In this document: positions 32,232 to 44,303 of the stretch, one piece after another | How positions within the stretch are numbered: the first letter of the stretch is position 1 | Layout: each line of letters opens with the position of its first letter | Source of the DNA: an uncultured Anaeromusa sp. | Lineage (GTDB): Bacteria > Bacillota > Negativicutes > Anaeromusales > Anaeromusaceae | NCBI RefSeq assembly: GCF_963676855.1 | Contig: NZ_OY781460.1 | Span: 124,001-188,000 of the forward strand | Length of the DNA: 64,000 nt | Direction of reading: 5' to 3' | The notes under the pieces: model-generated | What the model saw: the letters and a program-made list of their open reading frames with translations, nothing else | Told to the model about the DNA's origin: nothing | The model's database searches: none | Translations under genes and position numbers: made by a program

Positions 32232-34487
32232 ATGAATCTGCTGCCGGACGCCGCGCTTTCCAAAGACAACGAACATATTTTTCTATCGTGGCTCCTGAAG
32301 GAAGCCTCGCTGGGTATTTACATCATCAAAAGCATTGCCAAAAACCATTCCGTCATTCTGGCGGCCAATGATGTTTTTTGCCAATTGACCGGTTTAACCC
32401 ATGCTGAACTGATTGGTCAAAGCGCCTCGTCTCTTCTTGCCTTATTACGCGAAGAAGATCAACAAAAAATTCAAAACCTTTTGGACCAAGGCGCCCCCAT
32501 CACCGATTTGGAATTCCCCTGGCTGCAAAAAGACGGCTCCCAAGTCTGGGCCATCACGTCTTTACGCCGCTTCCCCTGCCAAAGCCACAGCCTTCTTGTA
32601 GGCATCTCCAAAAAGCTGCCTCTCCTCTCCTCTGACGATGCGGACAATGCCGAGTTCCGGCAGGAAGCACGCGCTGTCCATGCCAAAGTGCTGTTACTGG
32701 AACAACGTCTACAAGAGCAGCAAAAACGACTGCAGGAATCCCATGAACGACGAAACGCAGATGAAAAACGCTTCCACCTTGCTATGTCTTTTTCCGGCAT
32801 CGGTCTTTTAGATATCGACTGGGCCAAATCACCTGGAGCGTTTCGCCTTACCCGCAACTGGCTGAAAAAATTCGGCCTAGACCAATATTCCGGCGCTCTG
32901 GCCAAAGATTTATATGCCAGCCGTATCCACCCTGAAGACATCGCTTCCCATATTCAATCCTTGGCCATGCATCTTGAAGGAACGACCACGCTTTACGAAA
33001 ACGAGTATCGCATGAAGGATGCGCAAGGAAATTGGCTTTGGGTCTCTTTACGCGCCAAAACCCTGCGCAATAAAAATGGTCTTCCCGTACGCACAACTGG
33101 CCTTTTAACTGACATCACCGCGTTAAAACAACGCGACTACCAGGCCACCCATGACGAAGTAACCGAGCTATACAATCACCGCGGTTTCACAGAAAAAGTC
33201 TCGCAAATTTTAACTGCCAGTTCCGGCTCGCAAGGAGTACTTCTGTCTATCAATATTGATGACTTCAAGGTTATCAATGATGTCTACGGCTATGAGCAAG
33301 GCAATGAGTATCTGCTTAAGTTTGCGCTATATCTGCAGTCACTCTTTCCGCCGGGTACGCTTTTGGCCCGTTCCGGCGCCGATGAATATTTAGCCTTCTT
33401 TTTTGGCTCCTTGGAGGCCAGCCAGATTGCCGCTTACAGTTCTTCTTTCAAAAACATCTTCCTTGAAACCACTTTCGGATCTTTTTTCATTACAGCCAGC
33501 GGTGGCTTGGCACTAACTTCCGGCACTGCCGAAACAGCTCACGAACTAATCCAAAAAGCAAGTCTGGCACTCCATCAAGCGAAAGACCTGGGCAAATCCA
33601 CCTTCTGTCTCTATGAACCGGCCATGCAAAAAAAGAACGTCCGACGTCATGTACTGAAGGAAGGTTTAAACCACGCTTTTCGAAATCAAGAATTTTTTCT
33701 CGCTTTTCAACCCATCTATCAAGTCATAGAACAACAAGAACGCATTTACGGCTACGAAGTACTGTTGCGTTGGAAAAGCCCATCGCTGGGCCTAATTTCC
33801 CCCAACGAATTCATCCCTTTAGTGGAAGAGTCAAACCTCATTCTTTCCGTCGGCGAATGGACGCTTCGCGAAGCTTGCCGTGTTTCTGCACAGTTCCAGC
33901 AGCAATGCGGCGAGTATCTCAACATTTCCGTCAATGTATCAGTTCGTCAATTAGCCGCTCCCGGTTTTGTTAATCTGGTCTGCTCCATTTTGGAGCAAAG
34001 CAATTTGCCCGCAAGGTGTCTCACCCTGGAAATCACCGAAAGTATCATGATGGCCGACACGGAGAAAAATGTGGCCTTAATAAGCCAGTTGCGAAATCAT
34101 GGCGTTTCCATCGCGCTCGATGATTTCGGCACCGGTTATTCTTCGTTCACCTATCTGCAAAAGTTGCCCATTTCTATCTTGAAAATCGACAAATCACTTA
34201 TCGACGACATCACTTCTTCGCAAGGCAAAACGCAGCCCATCATTGCCTCGCTCATCCATATGTCCAAACTCCTTGGCTACCGAGTGGTCACCGAAGGAGT
34301 AGAAAGCCAAGAGCAATTGCAGTTGCTGCTACAAAATGGCTGTGAATACTTCCAAGGCTACTTTTTCAGTAAACCGCTGCCCCAAAGCGCCTTGCAAGAA
34401 CTACATCAACAAAAGCCAAAAAGCAGACTGTGTTTGCCGTTACCTTCTCTTAAAGGGGACGAAGAGAAACTACGCAATCTGGGCTAA
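32232..34487 (+). CDS. PAS-PAS-GGDEF-EAL protein, probable c-di-GMP phosphodiesterase
   Basis: The 751 residues have a PAS domain (about 20-130), a coiled-coil linker (about 150-180, rich in LEQRLQEQQKRLQE), a second PAS/PAC domain (about 180-300), a GGDEF domain (about 305-470) and an EAL domain (about 480-735). The GGDEF loop reads GADEY, so cyclase activity is unlikely. The EAL domain keeps its catalytic features: YEVLLRW (EVL form of EAL), NVSVRQL, LEITES, LDDFGTGYSS, LKIDKSLI, TEGVES and GYFFSKPL. It should therefore degrade c-di-GMP under PAS control. AAAGGAG precedes ATG 32232. Single gene. Confidence 0.93.
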   Translation: MNLLPDAALSKDNEHIFLSWLLKEASLGIYIIKSIAKNHSVILAANDVFCQLTGLTHAELIGQSASSLLALLREEDQQKIQNLLDQGAPITDLEFPWLQKDGSQVWAITSLRRFPCQSHSLLVGISKKLPLLSSDDADNAEFRQEARAVHAKVLLLEQRLQEQQKRLQESHERRNADEKRFHLAMSFSGIGLLDIDWAKSPGAFRLTRNWLKKFGLDQYSGALAKDLYASRIHPEDIASHIQSLAMHLEGTTTLYENEYRMKDAQGNWLWVSLRAKTLRNKNGLPVRTTGLLTDITALKQRDYQATHDEVTELYNHRGFTEKVSQILTASSGSQGVLLSINIDDFKVINDVYGYEQGNEYLLKFALYLQSLFPPGTLLARSGADEYLAFFFGSLEASQIAAYSSSFKNIFLETTFGSFFITASGGLALTSGTAETAHELIQKASLALHQAKDLGKSTFCLYEPAMQKKNVRRHVLKEGLNHAFRNQEFFLAFQPIYQVIEQQERIYGYEVLLRWKSPSLGLISPNEFIPLVEESNLILSVGEWTLREACRVSAQFQQQCGEYLNISVNVSVRQLAAPGFVNLVCSILEQSNLPARCLTLEITESIMMADTEKNVALISQLRNHGVSIALDDFGTGYSSFTYLQKLPISILKIDKSLIDDITSSQGKTQPIIASLIHMSKLLGYRVVTEGVESQEQLQLLLQNGCEYFQGYFFSKPLPQSALQELHQQKPKSRLCLPLPSLKGDEEKLRNLG

Positions 34488-34506: not shown

Positions 34507-34553
34507 AAGAGCCAAGGCTGACTGGAACTACTTTCCGGTCAGCCTTGGCTCTT
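34507..34553 (+). terminator. Bidirectional terminator between the EAL gene and the porin gene
   Basis: AAGAGCCAAGGCTGAC pairs with GTCAGCCTTGGCTCTT, a 16-bp stem. It closes the EAL gene and the long iron operon on the other strand. Confidence 0.85.
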
Positions 34554-34566
34554 GGCTTCTGCAGCC

Positions 34567-35523
34567 TTAAATACTATGTGTAAATGTGGCTTCCAATTTT
34601 GTGTTTTTTTCACCGCCAGCAAGAGATTTTTGATCTTTATACACCAATTCAAATGAGTTTTCTTTGCTGAATTGATGTTTAAGACCGTAATACATGCCTT
34701 TGTTATTGTTGTCAAAATCGCTTTGTTTCCCCATATCGCCGTTAGCTTCCACCCTGAAACCGGTAAGATATACCGCAGTTTTGTCATCAAACCCGTATTC
34801 CCAGGTCACCGCATACGCGTGATTCTCGTTGCTGCGATCAGATTGCGTATACTCCGCTGTCCAATTGTGCTTGCCTACTCGGTAAGAACTATCTACCGCC
34901 CAATGATTTGTATCTCCAGCAGCACTGTCTTGATACCGTCCCAACGTCATGCCCCACTGAAAGGGCTTCTCTTTTTGAAAGACGGTATGAATGGCATAAA
35001 GCCGGTTGTCCTGCTCTCCCGCATTATCTTCCTGGACAAAAGCGGCGGTAACATCCAAGCCGCCCATAGTTCCGTTTGCGGTTATACCATCTACAAAAGC
35101 CCGTTTGCCAATATTCGATTCCGAACGACTGTACAAAAGAGCCGTCGTACCTACGGTCAAATCCTGCCGGCCTATTTTTAGCAGCATGTCGCCAGCCTGA
35201 CGTGTAAAGCCAAACTGGTCAATCGTCATTACGGATTTTTTATCGCCGTATACAGCGGGATCTGTGTTATAATCCGCCAGCCCTGGCTGCGTAGCATGCT
35301 GCGCCCCAAAACGAGCATACAGGGACCATCCTTTTCCCAGATCCGCTTCCCCTTTTAAACGCACAGAACTCATCGTCCCGGAAACATCATCGGCGCCCTC
35401 GGCTGTATCTTTTTCATACTTGACCGTCACATCACCGCTAAATTTTACCGACTCCGCCGCCAACGCCATAGATGACGTCGTCAATACGGTTCCCGCCGCC
35501 AACATCGCCAACCATTTCTTCAT
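34567..35523 (-). CDS. Outer-membrane porin-like beta-barrel protein
   Basis: A 318-residue exported protein with a signal peptide (MKKWLAMLAAG start, MALAAES cleavage). The mature part alternates short amphipathic strands: VKFSGDVTVKYEK, SVRLKGEADLGKGWSLYARFG, FGFTRQAGDMLLKIGRQDL, WGMTLGRYQDS and YGLKHQFSKENSFELVY. This is the pattern of general Gram-negative porins, and IGRQDL is a common porin turn. No SLH domain is present, unlike the main porins of many Negativicutes. The start is 36 bases after the GGDEF gene stop, with no terminator between, so it may be the last gene of the iron operon. Confidence 0.82.
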   Translation of the reverse strand: MKKWLAMLAAGTVLTTSSMALAAESVKFSGDVTVKYEKDTAEGADDVSGTMSSVRLKGEADLGKGWSLYARFGAQHATQPGLADYNTDPAVYGDKKSVMTIDQFGFTRQAGDMLLKIGRQDLTVGTTALLYSRSESNIGKRAFVDGITANGTMGGLDVTAAFVQEDNAGEQDNRLYAIHTVFQKEKPFQWGMTLGRYQDSAAGDTNHWAVDSSYRVGKHNWTAEYTQSDRSNENHAYAVTWEYGFDDKTAVYLTGFRVEANGDMGKQSDFDNNNKGMYYGLKHQFSKENSFELVYKDQKSLAGGEKNTKLEATFTHSI

Positions 35524-35559
35524 AGAATCCCCTCACTTTTCTTTCTCTATCATTCTTGC

Positions 35560-36621
35560 TCAGCCGCGCCCTCCCACTTGTCGGTCTCTGCAGCAGCAGC
35601 GCGCAAGGCCTTGGCTAAGTACATCGTTTGCCCGCGTTTCTTCTTGTTCACTCTGTTTTCCTTTGCGTTTTTGCCACTCTTCCAAACTCACCGGCACGCC
35701 AGAAGAGCGAGCGCAGCAATACACACAGTTACGCCCTTCCCGCTTCGCCTGATAAAGAGCCTTATCCGCTCCCAGCAAAAATGGATCCGCCTGACATTCC
35801 TCTCCTTTTTGCAACGTATGCAAGCCAATGGAAACCGTAACCCCTTCAATACGTGCTCCTTGGTACAAAAAACAATAGCGTTGCACTTTTTGCAAAAGCT
35901 CCAACGCCTTGCGCGCCGCTTCTTCTGCAGTAAGTCCCGGCAAGATTACGGCAAACTCTTCGCCCCCTATGCGGGCCGCCATTTCTCTAGGAGATACTGT
36001 TTCAGCCAACAATTTCCCCATGCCTTGCAGCACGCAGTCGCCACCGGGATGACCATAGGTATCGTTGATCTTCTTGAAAAAATCAATATCCAAAATCAGC
36101 AGCGACAACGGGCGGCTGCAATCTTTGGCTACAGGAAGCTCCACCTGCAAATGTTCAAAAAAATGTCTGCGATTGGACAAGCCTGTGAGCGGGTCTACTA
36201 ACGCTAACTCCCGCATGCGTTGATAGGCCTCTTCCAAATCCACCGTACGCCGATTGAGTTCCTGCTCCCGCAGGCGAATGCGCCGTATCATCCATTGCAA
36301 ATCCCGAGACAAGCGCAGTAAATCATCCTCATCTTCGGCATCTGCCATTTCATTCGGGAGAACCGGCAAGTCAGCCAGTTCTCCCTTTTTCACATGTTCA
36401 CACCAAGCGTGTATGCGAGTCAGCGCCCGCCCCCAGAGCCACGGAGCCCCTAGGGAAGCCGCCATAAAGGCCAGTAGGCAAGCCGTCGCCAAAACCAACG
36501 AAAAGGTTGCCTCCAATTGCCGGTGCTCCCGCAGCAAGCCGCCAGCCAGAGCATAGAAAAGCAATAACGGCCCTAGGCCTGTCGCCAGGCAAAGCAGACG
36601 CAGCTTACCCCGCCCGGTCAC
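35560..36621 (-). CDS. Membrane-anchored GGDEF diguanylate cyclase in the feo operon
   Basis: A 353-residue inner-membrane protein predicted to make c-di-GMP. Two hydrophobic segments (LLCLATGLGPLLLFYALAGG and LVLATACLLAFMAASLGAPW) precede a HAMP-like linker and coiled coil (about 100-155). The GGDEF domain (about 165-325) has the LALVDPLTGLSNRRHF opening, ILDIDFFKKINDTYGH, and an intact GGEEF loop (ARIGGEEFAVI). The start is GTG 36621, overlapping the stop of the Cys-rich FeoB-associated gene by four bases (GTGA); the longer frame to 36702 lies inside that gene. This overlap ties a c-di-GMP source to ferrous uptake. Confidence 0.9.
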   Translation of the reverse strand: MTGRGKLRLLCLATGLGPLLLFYALAGGLLREHRQLEATFSLVLATACLLAFMAASLGAPWLWGRALTRIHAWCEHVKKGELADLPVLPNEMADAEDEDDLLRLSRDLQWMIRRIRLREQELNRRTVDLEEAYQRMRELALVDPLTGLSNRRHFFEHLQVELPVAKDCSRPLSLLILDIDFFKKINDTYGHPGGDCVLQGMGKLLAETVSPREMAARIGGEEFAVILPGLTAEEAARKALELLQKVQRYCFLYQGARIEGVTVSIGLHTLQKGEECQADPFLLGADKALYQAKREGRNCVYCCARSSGVPVSLEEWQKRKGKQSEQEETRANDVLSQGLARCCCRDRQVGGRG

Positions 36622-36797
36622 GAATGTTTTTCTCCGCAGCCTTGGCCGCAACCGCCGCAGCCGCCACTGCAACCACCCGCTGTGACGCTGGACTGCGCGC
36701 AAGCGCAGCTATCTTCACCACGAAGCTTGCGAATACCCAGCCATGCAAAATACGCTGCAGCCCCAGCACCGATTAGATATACCAGAACATCATTCAT
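36618..36797 (-). CDS. FeoB-associated Cys-rich membrane protein
   Basis: A 59-residue protein with one membrane helix (VLVYLIGAGAAAYFAWLGI) followed by a Cys-rich tail: CAC at about 35-37, then CSGGCGGCGQGCGEKHS. This matches the small FeoB-associated Cys-rich proteins found after feoB in Firmicutes and proposed to take the place of FeoC. AAGGAG precedes ATG 36797, 29 bases after the feoB stop. It probably sits in the inner membrane with FeoB and may bind iron or sense redox state. Confidence 0.88.
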   Translation of the reverse strand: MNDVLVYLIGAGAAAYFAWLGIRKLRGEDSCACAQSSVTAGGCSGGCGGCGQGCGEKHS

Positions 36798-36826
36798 AAT
36801 TTCTCCTTCTTTCCGCCAAGAAGCAA

Positions 36827-39199
36827 TTAGCCGCCCAGACCCAATAACAAGCCTCCCTGGTAGACAATAAACGCCATAAGCCACGCCAAGGTCATGGAGT
36901 ACGCCACACTGAAGCCAGCCCACTTCCAAGAATTCATTTCCCGCTTGATTACCGCCACTGTCGCCAAGCAAGGCGAGTAAATCAAGCAGAAAACCATGAG
37001 TGATATCGCAATCAGCGGACTGAACGAGGGATCTGCAGCCAGTACCTCCTGAAGCGGCGCCATCTCTTCATCGCTAGCCTCTACGCTATAAATCGTCGCC
37101 AGCGTACTCACCATAACTTCTTTAGCTGCAAAGGCACTGAACAAACCTACGCCTATCTTCCAGTCAAATCCCAGAGGCTTAATGATCGGTTCAATCGTCC
37201 GGCCTAACGAGCCGGCATAGCTTTGCGCCAAAAGCTCTGTTGCTTTCTCTTTGTTAAGTTTACTTTTCTCTTCTTCCGCTTCTTTTTTCAGCACTACGTA
37301 CTGCGCCGCAAAAGAAGACATTTGCTCTTTGCTGAACGTTTCGGGCGTCTTTTCCTTAGAGTCGTCTTCTACGGCAACAACCGCAGTTTCGTCTTCCGCC
37401 TTGGCGACTTCTTTTTCTGTTTCGTCAGCCTCTTCTGCCGTCGCTAATTCTTCCACCAGGGCGTTCAATTCTTCATTTTCTTCTACGGCAGTTATGCCCA
37501 ATGGCTCTAATACTTGCATTTGAAGCTGCTCTTCATAGCGTGTTTCCAAGGCCGACTGCAGGGCCTCGTACTTGCTGTTGACATCCTCGTTTTGCGGATA
37601 GTTGACACCGAACCAAACTAAAATAGACGCCGCTAAAATAATTGTCCCCGCCTTGCGCAAATAGATCAGGCTGCGCTCCCACATGTGGGTCAGCACACTG
37701 CGCAGCGTCGGCAAGTGATACGGAGGCATTTCCATAACAAAAGGCTCTGTATCTCCCGGAAACAAGGTTTTCCGAAACAAGAAGGCCATCCCGATTGCTA
37801 AAGCAATACCTAAAATATAAATGCCAAAGAGTACTGTTCCGGCCATGTCCTCTGTAAAGAAAGCGCCGATCAGCAACGTATACACCGGCAGTCTGGCGCT
37901 GCAGCTCATGAGCGGCGACACCAGAATTGTGATATAGCGATCTTTTTCATTTTCCAAGGTTCGCGCTGCCATTACAGCCGATACGTTGCACCCAAACCCC
38001 AGCAGCATCGGAATGAAAGACTTGCCATGCAAACCAAAGCCGCGCATGACCCGGTCCATCACAAAGGCCGCTCGCGCCATATAGCCGGAATCCTCTAGTA
38101 AAGCAATGGCGAAGAATAGCAACAAAATATCCGGCAAAAAGCTGACAACGCTGCCTACGCCGCCAATCATACCGTCTACCAACAAGGAGCGTAGATTTCC
38201 TTCCGGCAACGCCATCCCTACCGTTTCGCCTAACAACTTTACGCCAGCATCTAACATGTCTTTGGGAACGGCCCCCAAGGTGAACACCAAATTAAACAAA
38301 AGCCACATAAGTGCAAAGAAAATAGGCAGCCCTAAGACACGATGGGTCACAATGCTGTCAATGCGATCCGAGATTGTCCGAGTCTCTCTACGGTCTTGCG
38401 TTAAGCAAGATTCATAAATTTCTCCGGCCTTGCGATACCGGCGCCCGGCAATATAAATATCGACCTCTTCGTTCAAAGCAATTTGCAGTTCCCGTCGTTG
38501 CCGCTCGGCCTCTAAAACCACTTCCTCGCCGCCCGCAAGCAAGCGCAGCTGCGCCTCAACATCGTCATCGCGCTCCAACAACTTTACTGCCAGCCAGCGC
38601 GCAGGAAACGGCGAATCCAGATCTGCCAGTTTGGTTCCAAGGACCCCAAGAACGTGTTCAACCTGCTCGCCATAATCAATTCGGATTCGTGCGGTCGGCT
38701 CGCCTGCCATCTTTTCCACAGCCACCAGCAACTCGTCCATCCCTTTTTCCTGTCTCCCCACTGTAGGGATTACAGGAACCCCCAGTTGCGCTGCCAAGGC
38801 ATGTAAGTCATATACCAATCCTTGTTTTTCCGCCATATCCGCCATGTTAAGAGCCAACACCAAGGGGCGTTCCAATTCCAACAACTGCAGCGTCAGATAC
38901 AAGTGTCGTTCTAGGTTAGCGGCATCGGCTACATCAATCACCACGTCCGGCTTATCTTGAACGATAAAATTTCGTGCAACCACTTCTTCTAAGGAATAGG
39001 CCGTCAGGCTGTATGTACCTGGCAAATCAACCAGTACTGCCTCCCGCGCGCCAATTCGGCAATAGCCTTCCTTCTTCTCTACCGTTACACCGGGATAATT
39101 CCCCACATGCTGCCGCGCCCCGGTAAGAGCATTAAATACTGTAGTTTTTCCCGCATTGGGATTGCCTGCTAAGGCAATTGTCAGTCGTTCTTCGAACAC
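36827..39199 (-). CDS. feoB: Ferrous iron transporter FeoB
   Basis: GTP-dependent Fe(II) permease of the inner membrane; 790 residues. The N-terminal G domain has G1 GNPNAGKTT, the YPGVTVE switch region, G3 DLPGTYSL and G4 NMAD. The membrane part has the Gate motifs, with LLGFGCNVSAVMAAR and SARLPVYTLLIGAFF. A region of about 125 residues (roughly 535-660) between membrane helices is unusually long and acidic (runs of Glu/Asp near 568-616) before GRTIEPIIKPLGFDWKI. The start is GTG 39199, overlapping feoA by 19 bases, with GAGGGGG upstream. Confidence 0.97.
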   Translation of the reverse strand: MFEERLTIALAGNPNAGKTTVFNALTGARQHVGNYPGVTVEKKEGYCRIGAREAVLVDLPGTYSLTAYSLEEVVARNFIVQDKPDVVIDVADAANLERHLYLTLQLLELERPLVLALNMADMAEKQGLVYDLHALAAQLGVPVIPTVGRQEKGMDELLVAVEKMAGEPTARIRIDYGEQVEHVLGVLGTKLADLDSPFPARWLAVKLLERDDDVEAQLRLLAGGEEVVLEAERQRRELQIALNEEVDIYIAGRRYRKAGEIYESCLTQDRRETRTISDRIDSIVTHRVLGLPIFFALMWLLFNLVFTLGAVPKDMLDAGVKLLGETVGMALPEGNLRSLLVDGMIGGVGSVVSFLPDILLLFFAIALLEDSGYMARAAFVMDRVMRGFGLHGKSFIPMLLGFGCNVSAVMAARTLENEKDRYITILVSPLMSCSARLPVYTLLIGAFFTEDMAGTVLFGIYILGIALAIGMAFLFRKTLFPGDTEPFVMEMPPYHLPTLRSVLTHMWERSLIYLRKAGTIILAASILVWFGVNYPQNEDVNSKYEALQSALETRYEEQLQMQVLEPLGITAVEENEELNALVEELATAEEADETEKEVAKAEDETAVVAVEDDSKEKTPETFSKEQMSSFAAQYVVLKKEAEEEKSKLNKEKATELLAQSYAGSLGRTIEPIIKPLGFDWKIGVGLFSAFAAKEVMVSTLATIYSVEASDEEMAPLQEVLAADPSFSPLIAISLMVFCLIYSPCLATVAVIKREMNSWKWAGFSVAYSMTLAWLMAFIVYQGGLLLGLGG

Positions 39200-39444
39200 C
39201 TTGAAGCCCCCTCATTTTCCAGTTCTACGCAAATGAATGCCGCCTCGCGCTTACGCAATGATAAATTGCAGCCTTTTACTTTGATCTCCATGGGATCCCC
39301 CAGCGGCGCAAATTTACAAACCTCTATGGCCGTGCCACCTACCATGCCCATATCCACGATGCGCCGCTTAATGGCGCCAGCGCCATTCACGGACACAACA
39401 ATTCCCTTTTCTCCAGGTTGAAGCAAATGCAGCTCTTTGGTCAT
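39181..39444 (-). CDS. feoA: FeoA SH3-like protein
   Basis: An 87-residue cytoplasmic FeoA protein, the partner of FeoB. LLQPGEKGIVVSVNG, RRIVDMGMVGGTAIEVCKFAPLGDPMEIKVKGCNLSLRKREA is the classical SH3-like FeoA sequence. AGGAGG precedes ATG 39444. It overlaps the stop of the 44-residue Cys peptide gene (ATGA) and overlaps feoB by 19 bases, so the three are translationally linked. Longer upstream frames are not supported. Confidence 0.95.
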   Translation of the reverse strand: MTKELHLLQPGEKGIVVSVNGAGAIKRRIVDMGMVGGTAIEVCKFAPLGDPMEIKVKGCNLSLRKREAAFICVELENEGASRCSKND

Positions 39445-39575
39445 TGTTTTTCGCCTCCTTTTTGTTCTTGCCTCTGCCTGCAAGCGCAGCGATTTCCGCA
39501 AACGCGTCCACCACAGCGCCCTCCGCAGGCGCATTCTTGCTTAAGCGTTGGCAACTCTTTCTTGTTTTCAGCCAT
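39441..39575 (-). CDS. 44-residue cysteine peptide with mirror-symmetric CxC spacing
   Basis: Found by reading the minus strand. AAGGAG lies seven bases before ATG 39575, and the frame ends at TGA 39441, overlapping the feoA ATG by four bases. The core is ECACGGRCGGRVCGNRCACR: six cysteines at 15, 17, 21, 26, 30 and 32, spaced CxC-x3-C-x4-C-x3-CxC, so the pattern reads the same in both directions. Basic residues flank it. It is likely a cytoplasmic metal-binding peptide, perhaps an iron or zinc carrier serving FeoA/FeoB. No family was recognised. Good start signal, coupling and operon position support a real gene despite its size. Confidence 0.72.
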   Translation of the reverse strand: MAENKKELPTLKQECACGGRCGGRVCGNRCACRQRQEQKGGEKQ

Positions 39576-40275
39576 CACTACACTCCTTTATTTGATTTAG
39601 ATAATCATTCTCATTGTTTATTGCAAAAAAAAGATGGTCCGCAGGATACGAACGCCATTCTCGTTCTCTTTGTACAACAGGCCCAAAGGCCTTCACTGCC
39701 GCCGGATCAAACTGGCTGCCGCTGCAACGACACAACTCCTGCCAAGCCTCTTTAGCAGAAATCGCTTTTCGATAGGAACGCGCACTGGTCATGGCATCAT
39801 AGGAGTCCGCCACCGCAATTAACCGACTGGCCAAAGGAATGTCTTCCCCGCACATCCTGTCCGGATACCCGGTCCCGTCAAAGCGCTCATGATGATGACG
39901 CACAATGCGCGCCACCTGTTGAAACGAACTGATGCGCCGCAAGATCTGCCAGCCAATCACCGGATGCCGCTGCACCACCGCAAATTCTTCCGCCGTCAAA
40001 CGCGCCGCCTTATTCAATATCGCGTCAGGAATACCTATTTTCCCTACGTCATGCAAATGAGCCGCTACTTGCAATTCCGCCATTTGCGAGGCTCTCAGGT
40101 GTAACTGGTTTCCCAGAGCCATCGCCAGTTCGCCCACGCGGTGGGAATGCCCGTATGTGTTGCCATCTTTCGCATCAATGGCGCTGGCCAGCGCTTCCGC
40201 CAGTTCCCTCACCACACAATCAACGCCAAGCCCACAAAAAGCCTTTTCTTTTTCACCGCCCGGCGCAAACAGCAT
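39568..40275 (-). CDS. HD-GYP domain c-di-GMP phosphodiesterase in the feo operon
   Basis: A 235-residue cytoplasmic protein that is almost only an HD-GYP domain. YGHSHRVGELAMALG, HLHDVGKIGIPDAIL (HD site), HPVIGWQIL, IVRHHHERFDGTGYPD (GYP site) and VADSYDAMTSARSYR are all intact, so c-di-GMP hydrolysis is expected. A short N-terminal segment has no sensor domain. GGAGGTG lies seven bases before ATG 40275. The gene overlaps DUF3793 by 23 bases and the 44-residue peptide gene by eight. The last dozen codons contain a Fur-box-like sequence, so the tail DYLNQIKECSDG is shaped by an operator. Confidence 0.9.
   Translation of the reverse strand: MLFAPGGEKEKAFCGLGVDCVVRELAEALASAIDAKDGNTYGHSHRVGELAMALGNQLHLRASQMAELQVAAHLHDVGKIGIPDAILNKAARLTAEEFAVVQRHPVIGWQILRRISSFQQVARIVRHHHERFDGTGYPDRMCGEDIPLASRLIAVADSYDAMTSARSYRKAISAKEAWQELCRCSGSQFDPAAVKAFGPVVQREREWRSYPADHLFFAINNENDYLNQIKECSDG
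39600..39618 (-). promoter_or_regulatory. Fur box-like operator before the feo genes
   Basis: GATAATCATTCTCATTGTT on the plus strand matches the 19-base Fur consensus at 14 positions. It starts about 25 bases upstream of the 44-residue peptide ATG and lies inside the 3' end of the HD-GYP gene. It may control an internal promoter; no strong -10/-35 was found. Confidence 0.6.
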
Positions 40276-40843
40276 ATTGTAACACCTCCACATCTGGCAA
40301 ACCGCGCCGCAATAATTCTTTGGCACGCTCTTTCAGACGCCCCCAGCGTTCCATACGCTCCAACGACGCTTTCGGATCTCCATATACATGCCAAAGTCCA
40401 CCGCCACTGCGCCCCTCCTGGCTCAACCCCATAAATCCCAGTACGTCTTTCAAGGGAATTCCTAAAAACAAGCCCATTTCATGAGGCACTTCCTGGCGAA
40501 AACGCGCCGTCAGGCGCTCCAACTGCGCTGCCAGGGGCGCCGCAGGATCATAGCCGCAATAACGCAACAATGCTGCATGTTCCACACGGTGAAAACACGT
40601 TTGCAGAACTTCCGGCCGAAAAAAGAACAACACCGCGCCATTATCCCATAAACGCAACACCCTCCATTGCAAAGGCAGCCCCTTTAAAACATTCCAATGG
40701 TGCCGACGCCACCAGGTCCAAAGAGCCCGTTGGCGGTTATCCCGCAAGCACAAAATAGTAGCTTCTTTTTCACCTGCCAGGGTAGGCGCCAACTCCACCG
40801 CCAGCCAAGAAGCCAATTTTTTCACTTCCCCGCTACTTTCCAT
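40253..40843 (-). CDS. DUF3793 family protein
   Basis: A 196-residue cytoplasmic protein. LAVELAPTLAGEKEATILCL at the N-terminus, the LLRYCGYDPAAPLAAQLERLTARF middle and PHEMGLFLGIPLKDVLGFM are the DUF3793 hallmarks. The family has no established biochemical role. It overlaps the zinc-ribbon gene by 22 bases and the HD-GYP gene by 23, so it belongs firmly to the iron operon. AGGGGA lies seven bases before ATG 40843; the longer frame to 41062 lies in the previous gene. Confidence 0.85.
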   Translation of the reverse strand: MESSGEVKKLASWLAVELAPTLAGEKEATILCLRDNRQRALWTWWRRHHWNVLKGLPLQWRVLRLWDNGAVLFFFRPEVLQTCFHRVEHAALLRYCGYDPAAPLAAQLERLTARFRQEVPHEMGLFLGIPLKDVLGFMGLSQEGRSGGGLWHVYGDPKASLERMERWGRLKERAKELLRRGLPDVEVLQYAVCAGR

Positions 40844-41007
40844 GCGCACATCCCCTCTCCGCATTGAACGACTTCTCCTGCCGCTGTTTCCGGCGGTTTG
40901 TCGCAAAACACCTGCACGCAGCCGCAGCGGCTGCATTTGAATTCTACGCAGCGCACCAGGCCACGTCCCAGTAATTTTTTGCAGCATAAACACCGTAATT
41001 CTTTCAT
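40822..41007 (-). CDS. Com-like zinc-ribbon protein, first gene of the iron operon
   Basis: A 61-residue protein. ELRCLCCKKLLGRG followed by VEFKCSRCGCVQVF matches the zinc ribbon of Mu-like Com proteins (CxxC..KLL..KCxRCG). The C-terminal third adds CDKPPE and VVQCGEGMCAW, giving more cysteines than in Com. It may bind nucleic acid or metal. The ATG at 41007 has AAGGAG about 14 bases upstream, which is distant, and GGGCGG nearer, so initiation may be inefficient. It is the first reading frame after the Fur-flanked promoter and leader hairpin. Confidence 0.72.
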   Translation of the reverse strand: MKELRCLCCKKLLGRGLVRCVEFKCSRCGCVQVFCDKPPETAAGEVVQCGEGMCAWKVAGK

Positions 41008-41035
41008 AGCCGCCCGCTTTGCTCCTTTCTTTTCC

Positions 41036-41076
41036 AAAAACAAAAATCCCGAAGCATGCCAAAACACACTTCGGGA
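41036..41076 (-). terminator. Rho-independent hairpin in the leader of the iron operon
   Basis: On the minus strand TCCCGAAG and CTTCGGGA form an 8-bp stem with a 14-base loop, followed by TTTTTGTTTTT. It lies about 95 bases after the predicted transcription start and ahead of the first gene. It therefore acts either as an attenuator or as the end of a short RNA. Confidence 0.75.
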
Positions 41077-41170
41077 CTCTAGGTCCTCTTAAAAACGCTT
41101 TTCATCCCTACTTTGCGAGAAAGAATTCGTTTTGTGAAGCTTGCCGCTTATGAGTTTGATAATTATTTTC
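41036..41170 (-). ncRNA. Candidate Fur-controlled small RNA or attenuated leader
   Basis: About 135 bases from the predicted start of the Fur-flanked promoter to the T-run of the terminator. It holds no long frame; an eight-codon frame, MKSVFKRT, ends at the foot of the terminator stem but lacks a spaced ribosome site. The layout (Fur site, promoter, short RNA, strong terminator) is that of iron-sparing sRNAs such as RyhB or FsrA, though no sequence likeness is claimed. Confidence 0.45.
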
Positions 41171-41171
41171 A
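41157..41171 (-). promoter_or_regulatory. Fur box-like operator, start-site proximal
   Basis: TGATAATTATTTTCA matches TGATAATNATTATCA at 13 of 14 specified positions. It lies at the predicted transcription start of the iron operon. Confidence 0.7.
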
Positions 41172-41176
41172 ATTGA

Positions 41177-41205
41177 ATTTTACAAAACCATTTATGCTTT
41201 GTCAA
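41177..41205 (-). promoter_or_regulatory. Promoter of the iron operon
   Basis: On the minus strand TTGACA (41205-41200), a 17-base spacer and TAAAAT (41182-41177), which is close to sigma-A consensus, bracketed by two Fur-like boxes. Confidence 0.8.
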
Positions 41206-41213
41206 TATCTAAT

Positions 41214-41228
41214 TGAAATTTATTATCA
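41214..41228 (-). promoter_or_regulatory. Fur box-like operator, upstream
   Basis: TGAAATTTATTATCA matches TGATAATNATTATCA at 12 of 14 positions, just upstream of the -35 element. Confidence 0.6.
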
Positions 41229-41237
41229 TCAAAAAGC

Positions 41238-42104
41238 TTACGCTTTCTCTTTTGCCGCCAGATAGGCGATCGCCGAATGAGCCGCTACATTCCCTTCGCC
41301 TACGGCTACCGTAATCTGCCAAGGCTTCCCTGTGCAATCGCCTGCAGCAAACACGCCGGGAACCGAAGTTTTCTGCTGATGTGAGACCTTAATCGCATCC
41401 TTGCAAAGTTCTACCTCCGCCAGCAAATTTTCCACCGGATCGGTTTCACGCAAAATAAAGATTCCATCCGCCTCTACCTGCCCTTTGGTATGCTGCAGCA
41501 CCAAACGCTCTTCTTTTGCCGCCACACCTTTAGGCTTGCCGCTGCAAACCTGCACCACCGGCGGCAAAGAACCTACCGGTTTGTACTGGGGAAAATAAAG
41601 AACCTTACTGCAAATTTCGCTCAAAAAAACCGCTTCATGTTCCGCCTCGGCGGCGTAAGCCACTACCGCTACTTCCTTTTCCCGGTACAACATGCCGTCG
41701 CAAGTGGCGCAATAGCTGACGCCCTGTCCCAGCAAGCCTTTTTCGCCCGCCAAAAGCTCTGCTGGCGAAACGCCGATGGCTAAAATCACCGCCTTAGCCT
41801 CGTACACATCCTGCGGCGTCAAAAGAGTAAACACGTCCCCAGGAAAAATCTGCGTCACTTTTTCTTTCACCAGCACCGGCCCGGCAGCCAGACAATGCTC
41901 TGCCATGCGCTCCATCAATTCTTTACCGCTCAAATTCGGCATTCCCAAATAATTAGGAATATCCGTCGCCCGCTGCAGTTTAGCGCTGAAGCCCATGTGT
42001 TCAAAAATCACAACACTTTTATTGCGAACCCGCGCTGTCAGCGCTGCTGAAAGCCCCGCTGGGCCGCCGCCGACAACGGCAATGTCATATACTTGTTTTT
42101 CCAT
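41238..42104 (-). CDS. Thioredoxin reductase-like flavoprotein, NADPH motif missing
   Basis: A 288-residue cytoplasmic FAD protein with the TrxR plan: FAD motif VVGGGPAGLSAAL, the redox pair in GVSYCATCDGMLYRE, and the C-terminal FAD motif PGVFAAGDCTG. The second nucleotide site is abnormal: where NADPH-dependent TrxR has GGGxSA and HRR, this reads VVAYAAEAEHEA and VLYFPQYK. That loss is described for ferredoxin-dependent flavin thioredoxin reductases of clostridia, so a ferredoxin donor is a reasonable inference. AAGGAGGG lies before ATG 42104; TTG 42107 is less likely. No thioredoxin gene is adjacent. Confidence 0.85.
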   Translation of the reverse strand: MEKQVYDIAVVGGGPAGLSAALTARVRNKSVVIFEHMGFSAKLQRATDIPNYLGMPNLSGKELMERMAEHCLAAGPVLVKEKVTQIFPGDVFTLLTPQDVYEAKAVILAIGVSPAELLAGEKGLLGQGVSYCATCDGMLYREKEVAVVAYAAEAEHEAVFLSEICSKVLYFPQYKPVGSLPPVVQVCSGKPKGVAAKEERLVLQHTKGQVEADGIFILRETDPVENLLAEVELCKDAIKVSHQQKTSVPGVFAAGDCTGKPWQITVAVGEGNVAAHSAIAYLAAKEKA

Positions 42105-42418
42105 CAATTCTCCCTCCTTAGGGTGCTCATGTTATAGGCATATTTTTTCTTTTCCTAGTTATTCTTTTGTATTTCATTTCGCGACCCCGCAGCGAGAATC
42201 CTTCTCCGCGGAGTCATACGAGCGCATTCTTATGATGACATTTTAGCAAGGTTCCAGCCACGCCTTATTTCTCACTTTTCCACTACCGCTGCCAAACTCA
42301 AGGTTTACAAAGCGCACTATCTTATCCGACCTACACGGCAATTTGTTGTATCAGTTTTTTGATGTTTTTTTCAAAAATACACTTGACTTTCTTCAAGAGA
42401 GCATCTTATAATAAGGCC
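42105..42418. other. Intergenic region between the flavoprotein and serA
   Basis: Divergent upstream regions. A hairpin lies near 42184-42215 (ACCCCGC..GAGAA against TTCTC..GCGGAGT) in the flavoprotein leader, and the serA promoter is at the right end. No gene was seen. Confidence 0.4.
42383..42412 (+). promoter_or_regulatory. Promoter of the serA operon
   Basis: TTGACT (42383-42388), an 18-base spacer and TATAAT (42407-42412). The start would be at about 42419, the beginning of the T-box leader. Confidence 0.85.
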
Positions 42419-42672
42419 AATGGTCTTGCATACAGAAAACACGATGCACGGGAAGCCTACTGTTCTTGTCGCCCAGAAAACCGGCGGTTGCTGCGAGCCG
42501 GAGGATAAGACGTATGGTTCCGCCCGGAAGTGTCTGACGAAGAGTCAGTACGGGTTCCGCCCGTTAAAGCGGTTCGAGGTGGTCGCTGTTTTAACCTAGG
42601 AAAACACGACACAAGTTGGGTGGCAACGCGGGAATCAATCCCGCCCCTTCACGGGGGCGGGATTATTTTTTT
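42419..42672 (+). promoter_or_regulatory. T-box riboswitch leader of serA
   Basis: A leader of about 250 bases between promoter and serA. The T-box core GGGTGGCAACGCGG is at 42618-42631. It is followed by a terminator, AATCCCGCCCC/GGGGGCGGGATT with a T9 run (42638-42672), whose 5' arm can instead pair with the core region as the antiterminator. Uncharged tRNA binding should allow read-through. Serine specificity is inferred from the genes controlled; the specifier codon could not be placed with confidence. Confidence 0.88.
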
Positions 42673-42713: not shown

Positions 42714-44303
42714 ATGATGAAAGTACTTGTCAGCGATCCAGTATCGGAAAAAGGAGTGGCTCTGCTTAAAGAGCAATTTGAGGTGGACGTAAAAACCAAG
42801 CTGCCTGTAGAAGAACTTATTCGCATTATTCCTGATTATGACGGATTGGTTGTGCGCAGTGAAACCAAAGTCACCGCTCCAGTTCTGGACGCGGCGGTAA
42901 AACTCAAAGTCATTGGCCGCGCCGGTGTTGGCGTTGACAACATTGACGTAGAGTACGCCACAAAAAAAGGCGTCATCGTCCTTAATGCGCCTGAAGGCAA
43001 CACCATGGCCGCCACGGAACATTCCGTCGCCATGATGATGTCCATGGCCCGCAACATTCCCCAGGCTCATGCCACCATGCAAGACGGCAAATGGGAACGG
43101 GGCAAATTCATGGGCGTTGAGTTGCGCGGCAAAACGCTGGGCATCCTCGGACTGGGCCGTATCGGCACTGGCGTAGCCAAACGCGCGCTGGCTCTGGAAA
43201 TGCGCGTCCTCGCGTACGATCCCTTCATTAATGTCGAGGCCGCCCAATCTTTAGGCATCGAAGTAGCCGAAATGGATGAGATTTTCGCCCAAGCTGATTT
43301 CATCACTCTACACTTGCCGAAAACCGCTCAGACCAAAAATCTAATCACCAAAGACGTTTTCGCCAAAATGAAAAAAGGCGTTCGCATTGTTAACTGCGCC
43401 CGGGGAGGCGTCATTAATGAAGCCGATTTGGCCGCAGCCGTACAAGAGGGCATTGTCGCCGGCGCCGCTATCGACGTATTTGAAAGCGAGCCCATCCAAG
43501 AAGGCAATCCTCTCATCGGCCTGCCTAATGTCATTGTAACGCCTCACTTAGGCGCCTCCACCGTAGAAGCTCAAGTTGGCGTAGCCGTCGATGTCGCTCA
43601 CGGTATTGTCGCCGCTTTGAAAGGCGAACCCGTCACCACCGCCGTCAACATGGCTGCCATCCCGGCGCATGTACTCAAGAAACTGCGCCCCTACCTCAAC
43701 TTGGCAGAGCGTATGGGCTGCCTGGCTGTACATCTGGCTGAAGGCCGCATGACTGCCATTCACATCGAATACAACGGCGATATCGGCGATGTGGACACCC
43801 GCATGCTGACCACTGGCGTATTGAAAGGCTGCCTCAATCCAATCCTGCAAGAAGCCATCAACTACGTCAACGCTCCTGGCTTGGCGAAGGCCCGCAACAT
43901 CGAAGTCAAAGAAATCAAAACTAAGGAAGCGGCTAATTTCGCCAACCAAATTACCGTTCGCCTAGTTACCGACAAGGGCGAGCACAGCGTATCCGGTACC
44001 CTCTTCGGCAAAGCGGAAGCGCGCATCGTCATGATCGACGGCTATCGCGTTGACGTACAGCCCGGCGGCTGGCTCTTAACCTGCCCCCATGTTAATCGCC
44101 CCGGTATCATCGGTAAAGTCGGCACCATGCTAGGTGAAGAAGGCGTCAACATTTCCAGCATGCAAGTAGGCCTGACCGAAGTAGAAGGCACCAGCATCAT
44201 GGTTCTGGGCGTTGACAGCGACGTTCCTAACGCAGTTCTGCTCAAGCTCAAAGGCATTGACGGCATTTATGACGCCAAGCTGATTAATTTCGATGCTCGT
44301 TAA
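42714..44303 (+). CDS. serA: D-3-phosphoglycerate dehydrogenase
   Basis: First step of serine synthesis. The 529-residue long form has the substrate/NAD domains (about 1-315) with GRAGVGVDNID, the dinucleotide motif LGLGRIGTGVAKRA, VRIVNCARGGVINE and the catalytic His in TPHLGAST. An ASB/intervening domain follows, then a C-terminal ACT domain (about 455-528; NRPGIIGKVGTMLGEEGVNISSMQVG) that usually gives serine feedback. GGAGGGG precedes ATG 42714. It lies behind the T-box and starts the serA-DUF1015-serC operon. Confidence 0.98.
   Translation: MMKVLVSDPVSEKGVALLKEQFEVDVKTKLPVEELIRIIPDYDGLVVRSETKVTAPVLDAAVKLKVIGRAGVGVDNIDVEYATKKGVIVLNAPEGNTMAATEHSVAMMMSMARNIPQAHATMQDGKWERGKFMGVELRGKTLGILGLGRIGTGVAKRALALEMRVLAYDPFINVEAAQSLGIEVAEMDEIFAQADFITLHLPKTAQTKNLITKDVFAKMKKGVRIVNCARGGVINEADLAAAVQEGIVAGAAIDVFESEPIQEGNPLIGLPNVIVTPHLGASTVEAQVGVAVDVAHGIVAALKGEPVTTAVNMAAIPAHVLKKLRPYLNLAERMGCLAVHLAEGRMTAIHIEYNGDIGDVDTRMLTTGVLKGCLNPILQEAINYVNAPGLAKARNIEVKEIKTKEAANFANQITVRLVTDKGEHSVSGTLFGKAEARIVMIDGYRVDVQPGGWLLTCPHVNRPGIIGKVGTMLGEEGVNISSMQVGLTEVEGTSIMVLGVDSDVPNAVLLKLKGIDGIYDAKLINFDAR

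Follow-up and report, generated by a model that had tools for sequence, protein, structure and literature searches.

A ferrous-iron uptake operon of an uncultured Anaeromusa sp. with a predicted c-di-GMP synthase and hydrolase of its own

An uncultured Anaeromusa sp. of the class Negativicutes (assembly GCF_963676855.1) carries a feoAB operon for ferrous iron uptake that also includes genes for a predicted cyclic di-GMP (c-di-GMP) synthase, a membrane GGDEF protein, and a predicted c-di-GMP hydrolase, a stand-alone HD-GYP protein. The operon lies within 64,000 nucleotides of contig NZ_OY781460.1 (positions 124,001 to 188,000), referred to here as the window. We propose, with a probability of about 0.57, that this is an Fe(II)-uptake operon under predicted Fur control whose own synthase and hydrolase would turn iron starvation into a c-di-GMP signal. 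The basis for this proposal is the gene order, the overlapping gene ends, the conserved promoter and Fur-like boxes, the recurrence of the arrangement, the boxes of enzyme copies detached from feo genes, and the intact catalytic motifs. From these we infer Fur repression, co-transcription past a hairpin in the leader, the activities of both enzymes, and a dependence of the hydrolase on Fe(II). The Fur-like sites of the detached copies are the main result, as the strongest indication that these c-di-GMP enzymes probably belong to an iron regulon.

Recurrence beside feoB and Fur-like sites of detached copies

A sequence-only reading of the window had proposed searching relatives for feoAB genes accompanied by HD-GYP and GGDEF genes. 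A total of 250 genomes from the class were screened for feoB and, using profiles of the feo-linked proteins, for the GGDEF protein (A2) and the HD-GYP protein (A3). Matches were counted as near feoB when within 4 kb of a feoB match and, for HD-GYP, also on the same strand. No HD-GYP match scored between 252 and 278 bits, a gap that divided the matches into an upper and a lower group. Relatives scoring at least 278 bits were present in 41 of the 250 genomes and were near feoB in 25 of the 41, spread over 11 families; when the 11 genomes used to train the profile were set aside, the count was 14 of 30. None of the 22 rows tested at 235 to 252 bits (28 in all, six having been left out) was near feoB. 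Similarly, 24 of 35 GGDEF matches of at least 212 bits were near feoB (13 of 24 without the 11 training genomes), compared with 0 of 13 rows of no more than 200 bits. In 21 genomes from 8 families and 10 genera, the two enzymes were both near feoB, and the ends of the HD-GYP and GGDEF matches were 6 to 67 bp apart in 23 of the 30 genomes with both within 4 kb; for one GGDEF gene of G068, a second row was omitted from this comparison of positions. The near-feoB counts are lower bounds because the feoB list omitted most rows of two families (f4 and f25), and low-scoring feoB pieces were included for only a few genomes. The lack of conservation in relatives that the sequence-only reading had named as a contrary outcome did not come true.

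The gene set is retained and its order is shuffled among loci. Many loci have the order feoAB-GGDEF-HD-GYP, Sporomusa sp. KB1 (L152) and a relative (L153) have DUF3793-GGDEF-feoA-feoB-HD-GYP-porin, and in the genus of the window the HD-GYP gene precedes feoA. At a further locus (L142, genome G126), an 81-amino-acid feoB-like open reading frame (ORF) lies between the DUF3793 and HD-GYP ORFs, and HD-GYP remains where feoB looks lost.

Fur-like sites were searched for with the palindrome TGATAATNATTATCA, which we take to be the Fur consensus. This pattern gave 105 sites in 64 loci (four of which repeat contigs already counted) versus 3 to 10 for six scrambled palindromes. A site was assigned to a gene when it had no more than two mismatches and lay in the interval from 250 bp before the ORF start to 20 bp into the ORF, with upstream distances based on longest-ORF starts. 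HD-GYP genes, alone or paired with GGDEF, were counted as detached units when the retrieved stretch contained no feo gene (n = 13; an HD-GYP gene at a contig start in G142, and L142 and L143, with a feoB remnant and a feoA neighbor, were excluded). Nine of the 13 detached units had a Fur-like site; the other four, all from one genus, had one at 3 mismatches. Sites were found at 8 of 177 other genes in the same loci and at 1 of 20 control HD-GYP genes, which were picked from the rows below 252 bits in the same class; a second control had a site at 3 mismatches. In each of the six genera with detached units, at least one member had a site. The control with a site (G018) faces DUF3793, Com-type, and porin ORFs in convergent orientation and is placed, on a long branch, inside the main feo-linked clade; it is likely a member of the module. 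The detached units differed from the other 19 controls (Fisher P = 2.5e-5) and from all 20 (P = 1.6e-4).

A search of the phylum (398 genomes, including that of the window and 13 or more others from the class) added one case from outside the class. In this genome (G396), an HD-GYP gene in the upper score range is preceded at 59 bp by a Fur-like site with 1 mismatch, and the 19 kb retrieved around it contains no feo gene. Four further HD-GYP loci from this search (L195 to L198) had no site under 4 mismatches. If these enzymes were linked to iron only via feoB, detached copies would need no Fur-like site; that such sites were found points to membership in the iron regulon.

Promoter, active sites, and competing explanations

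The sequence-only reading had described a promoter flanked by Fur-like boxes, and this element was confirmed and proved conserved in the genus (Table 1). Both promoter hexamers are identical in three same-genus genomes, and the palindrome just 3' of the -10 hexamer is unchanged in four of four genomes of the genus. Neither the promoter scan (6 sites versus 7.3 expected in shuffles) nor the terminator scan (12 versus 9.8 expected) gave an overall excess; therefore, we placed weight on conservation. The internal Fur-box-like site is at the same place in three same-genus genomes, a conservation that is partly explained by codons because the site lies within coding sequence. In the whole 3.53-Mb genome, the pattern with no more than two mismatches occurred at 21 places, and the reversed pattern at 12. 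Three of the 21 are inside the 6.7-kb operon, for which the Poisson chance is about 1e-5, calculated for a stretch that an earlier reader had selected beforehand. Two other sites (G000:C1:1359459 and 1359526) are about 0.4 kb 5' of a second feoB-like match at 1,359,916, and their position near this gene thus serves as an internal check of the Fur pattern.

All genes had been placed behind this one promoter. The promoter stood, and either the leader hairpin or the internal Fur-like site, both of which had been overlooked, may uncouple parts of the operon. The hairpin is kept in three same-genus genomes, and the whole leader folds with a z score of -2.66; a genome search found the leader once, with no further copies. 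A leader riboswitch was considered and rejected: across the entire window, Rfam reported nothing at gathering score, and between 40800 and 41300 there were only two chance-level matches, the best with an E value of 0.29 and on the opposite strand. The hairpin may also end the transcript of an upstream thioredoxin-reductase-like gene, because no other terminator-like site was listed between that gene and the feo promoter. It is a possible attenuator or the end of a short iron-regulated RNA, and hairpin and internal site may reflect attenuation, a short RNA, or a second start for feoAB.

The catalytic motifs of the HD-GYP proteins are intact. In an alignment of linked or detached copies, with numbering after PmGH (PMC4159591), the ligands H189, H221, D222, H250, H277, and D305 were kept in 40 of 40, as were K225, the GYP motif, and D308; H276 was kept in 39 of 40. 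PMC4159591 includes E185 among the metal ligands of a trinuclear-type center. The residue at this position is N in the window protein and N, Y, C, F, or H in all 40, never E or D; therefore, by comparison with PmGH, a dinuclear rather than a trinuclear center is predicted. According to PMC8177086, Fe and Mn are the main activating metals of HD-GYP enzymes, PmGH is active with both, and dinuclear HD-GYP enzymes carry out one-step hydrolysis only.

The active site of the cyclase, GGEEF, is kept as well. RxxD is the product-inhibition site of GGDEF cyclases and is not essential for membership; it is absent from the window protein and two same-genus rows, which have SPRE there, and is present in 8 of 8 rows of other families. 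The first 140 residues matched an input-domain profile of feo-linked cyclases, built without the window genus, at 104 bits (E = 3e-30), and the best entry outside the genus had an E value of 0.04 among 7590 entries, from which the other GGDEF ORFs of the survey loci were excluded. Because it shares this input domain, the window cyclase belongs to the same family as the other feo-linked cyclases. The Sporomusa copy of the domain found 66 proteins, 65 of them with PF00990. A low-confidence structural model (predicted local distance difference test [pLDDT] score, 67) has two membrane helices, a three-residue turn, and then linker helices, with no sizeable periplasmic part. Pfam reported no HAMP domain in the input region, and a HAMP-like role is a guess.

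Under the proposed mechanism, low iron would release Fur, and importer, cyclase, and hydrolase would be made together. The cyclase would make c-di-GMP once the operon was derepressed, and in an iron-starved cell the seven-ligand, predicted dinuclear site of the HD-GYP protein, of a type known with Fe or Mn, would be partly unfilled, so that c-di-GMP would rise. Fe(II) restored by FeoB, possibly fed via the porin, would fill the hydrolase and c-di-GMP would fall, and Fur would shut the operon as iron returned. The outputs would be the c-di-GMP receptors of the cell; nine c-di-GMP-I riboswitch matches and two PilZ genes in the genome could respond. Inputs to the cyclase might invert the sign of the response, and Mn might take the place of Fe. 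A tentative extension, less likely than not, is that in outer-membrane-bearing Firmicutes c-di-GMP acts as an iron second messenger, with a Fur-controlled cyclase/HD-GYP pair in which the iron site of the hydrolase senses Fe(II) supplied by the adjacently encoded FeoB, and with c-di-GMP riboswitches and PilZ proteins as the output.

That the operon is probably an iron-responsive unit of Fe(II) uptake and c-di-GMP metabolism, as the sequence-only reading had it, is supported by the recurrence of the arrangement and by the Fur-like boxes. The same boxes before detached copies would also suit enzymes that belong to the Fur regulon and have no iron sensing of their own, iron limitation raising both and changing global c-di-GMP with a sign set by the cyclase inputs. 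We consider this possible without favoring it: the conserved membrane input domain of the cyclase could take another signal, and HD-GYPs also work with Mn, but the pairing of synthase and hydrolase genes, 6 to 67 bp apart in 23 of 30 genomes, is left unexplained. An unlikely reading of the leader is that it is mainly a Fur-regulated small RNA of about 125 nucleotides ending at the hairpin, with Cys44-feoAB driven mostly from the internal Fur-like site. The conserved terminator-like hairpin 3' of a Fur-flanked promoter and the internal site itself speak for it, but no promoter-like site was listed at the internal place and the leader has no Rfam match. Local action of the enzyme pair on iron transport, through FeoB, the porin, or the DUF3793 and DUF2325 partners rather than through cell-wide c-di-GMP, is improbable. 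The gene set does recur with DUF3793, DUF2325, and porin genes, but several units away from feo still carry a Fur-like box, and the Pfam scan matched no c-di-GMP-binding domain among the window operon proteins. Least probable is a chance neighborhood in a genome rich in c-di-GMP genes. First-look candidates in the window genome number 61 GGDEF-like and 49 HD-GYP-like, and the HD-GYP of the window genus may be of separate origin, but the recurrence of the two enzymes near feoB (21 genomes, 8 families) and the Fur-like boxes before detached copies weigh strongly against chance.

Several observations weigh against the proposal that iron supply controls c-di-GMP through this pair. Of the 100 genomes whose feoB match reached E <= 1e-140, only 23 had an HD-GYP and 24 a GGDEF match nearby; families f4 and f25, in which many genomes have feoB, had no row in either enzyme search; and 16 of the 41 HD-GYP relatives were away from any feoB match. 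Loss of hydrolase activity at low iron is not assured, because HD-GYPs can use Mn, and the metal site is not special to the feo-linked group, because the control HD-GYPs carry an identical ligand set. The HD-GYP of the window genus lies beyond the main feo-linked clade, at the end of a long branch, and a profile built without the genus scores it at only 263 to 267 bits, barely above a control ceiling of 262 bits that excludes the G396 protein. A single clade with the feo-linked HD-GYPs was not rejected (approximately unbiased test, P = 0.237); the window-genus protein may have diverged within that group or may have been recruited to this position independently, and independent recruitment, if true, would in itself speak for function. 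The GGDEF-domain tree, in which the controls numbered just five, did not separate the alternatives either (P = 0.148). Many transcripts could end at the terminator-like hairpin and never reach the first gene. Furthermore, the Fur-box-like sites rest on an assumed consensus, and Fur control of the operon is a prediction from them.

Operon genes and their neighbors

ORF calling placed nine minus-strand ORFs in one row from 41007 to 34567, bearing out the co-directional arrangement previously described. The gaps in gene order are -22, -23, -8, -4, -19, +29, -4, and +36 bases (range, -23 to +36). The junction of the gene for a 44-amino-acid peptide (Cys44) with feoA is a 4-base ATGA overlap, with the feoA ATG at 39444. 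No terminator-like site was listed by the window scan in the gap between the GGDEF and porin genes, in agreement with the sequence-only reading. Family profiles identified FeoA and a FeoB with G-protein, gate, and C-terminal domains. Among the small proteins of the window, neither Cys44 nor the Com-like ORF had a Pfam match, and no Pfam or TIGR-type family scored above cutoff for the 59-amino-acid protein after FeoB. The Com-like ORF of the window forms one protein cluster in a large protein search; its label draws on a similar G018 ORF adjoining DUF3793 that matches PF10122 barely above cutoff.

Table 1. Features of the operon and related small proteins (window positions unless a locus is given)
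Feature	Position	Strand	Basis or remark
Fur-box-like palindrome, 5' of -35	41214..41228		2 mismatches; conserved in 4/4 genus genomes
Predicted sigma-70-type promoter, TTGACA-17-TAAAAT	41177..41205	-	11/12 consensus matches
Fur-box-like palindrome TGAAAATAATTATCA, just 3' of -10	41157..41171		1 mismatch to TGATAATNATTATCA
Terminator-like hairpin in leader, between promoter and first gene	41043..41080	-	17 pairs
Com-like zinc-ribbon protein, 61 amino acids	40822..41007	-	Ten Cys, some as CxxC pairs (by eye)
DUF3793 protein	40253..40843	-	PF12672, 110 bits, 1.6e-31
Stand-alone HD-GYP protein, predicted c-di-GMP phosphodiesterase	39568..40275	-	PF13487, 7.8e-43
Internal Fur-box-like site, HD-GYP 3' end, just before Cys44/feoA	39599..39613		2 mismatches
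Cys-rich peptide, 44 amino acids (Cys44)	39441..39575	-	ORF; homologue in 3 same-genus genomes
feoA	39181..39444	-	PF04023, 5.4e-20
feoB	36827..39199	-	TIGR00437, 620 bits (cutoff, 316)
Cys-rich protein after feoB, 59 amino acids, single hydrophobic stretch	36618..36797	-	ORF
Membrane GGDEF protein, predicted diguanylate cyclase	35560..36621	-	PF00990, 5.3e-41
Porin with OmpM1-like barrel	34567..35523	-	PF13609, 2.1e-13
Inverted repeat 3' of porin, likely bidirectional terminator	34507..34553		21-nucleotide arms, 95% complementary
Small DUF2325 protein in or beside feo operon	L152:7677-7964		
Small DUF2325 protein in or beside feo operon	L161:4924-5259		
Small DUF2325 protein in or beside feo operon	L156:6304-6627		
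Small DUF2325 protein in or beside feo operon	L170:8528-8842		

The porin was also upheld as an operon partner: of the 32 genomes having it, 16 carry their best copy no more than 4 kb from a feoB match. Its model (pLDDT, 84) matched OmpM1 best in the PDB (8byt; template modeling score, 0.71; 17% identity), and passage of Fe(II) through such a barrel is no more than plausible. The aligned porins, that of the window and ten feo-linked ones, share an invariant T-N-H-W-A-x-D stretch. Because DUF3793 is found in 169 of the 250 class genomes, it is mostly not tied to the module; 13 of 26 tested places were near feoB, but these places were hand-picked, and hence no rate is claimed. Four of five small neighbors tested in feo operons of relatives were DUF2325 proteins (Table 1), and in the Pfam scan none of the window operon proteins matched this family.

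Directly upstream of the operon (41238-42107, minus strand) is a thioredoxin-reductase-like flavoprotein gene that scored below the TIGR01292 cutoff and stays beside the operon in three same-genus genomes; its product could be a ferric or disulfide reductase. A convergent ORF 3' of the porin (32232-34487, plus strand) appears by eye to encode a PAS-GGDEF-EAL protein, in which case a further c-di-GMP enzyme would border the operon. Farther upstream, a leader at 42400-42660 (plus strand), 5' of a serA-like ORF at 42714, has a GGGTGGCAACGCGGG stretch and a GC hairpin. We take this stretch to be T-box-like; Rfam gave no match to this leader at gathering score.

Significance and comparison with known systems

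The signal is unknown for many c-di-GMP enzymes. Here, comparison across several families ties one cyclase family and one HD-GYP group to a single input, iron, so that input and order of events can both be tested. If the proposal is true, iron supply would feed straight into a signal that in most cases controls settling and swimming, connecting iron supply with the choice of lifestyle in anaerobes such as Sporomusa. An unnamed membrane input domain would gain a setting, and some DUF3793 and DUF2325 proteins would be put in the context of iron.

FeoAB(C) ferrous-iron operons stand under Fur. The window operon resembles them in its adjacent, overlapping feoA and feoB genes and in the Fur-box-like operators at its promoter, but it adds a cyclase, an HD-GYP protein, DUF3793, a porin, and a leader hairpin. 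The modeled barrel of its porin is similar in fold to OmpM1 of Veillonella parvula (8byt), a general porin; unlike OmpM1, the window porin is encoded in an iron operon and, by length and model, would have little beyond a signal peptide and barrel. Compared with PmGH as described in PMC4159591 and PMC8177086, the window HD-GYP has all of the ligands but E185 and the GYP motif, but it is predicted to be dinuclear, is a stand-alone domain, and is predicted to be synthesized under iron control.

A search of open-access full-text literature, with subscription papers outside its reach, found no feo operon with its own cyclase and hydrolase. One candidate precedent, PMC8250860, was rejected: it concerns stalk formation, and its single "feoB" is an abbreviation for iron oxidizers within a reference. 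In Pseudomonas aeruginosa, iron supply affects biofilm formation, a c-di-GMP-linked behavior, but the excerpted portion of PMC6344620 describes no cyclase/hydrolase pair in an Fe(II) transporter operon. Feo operons, cyclases, and HD-GYP proteins are individually well known, and what appears new is a feo operon with its own cyclase/hydrolase pair.

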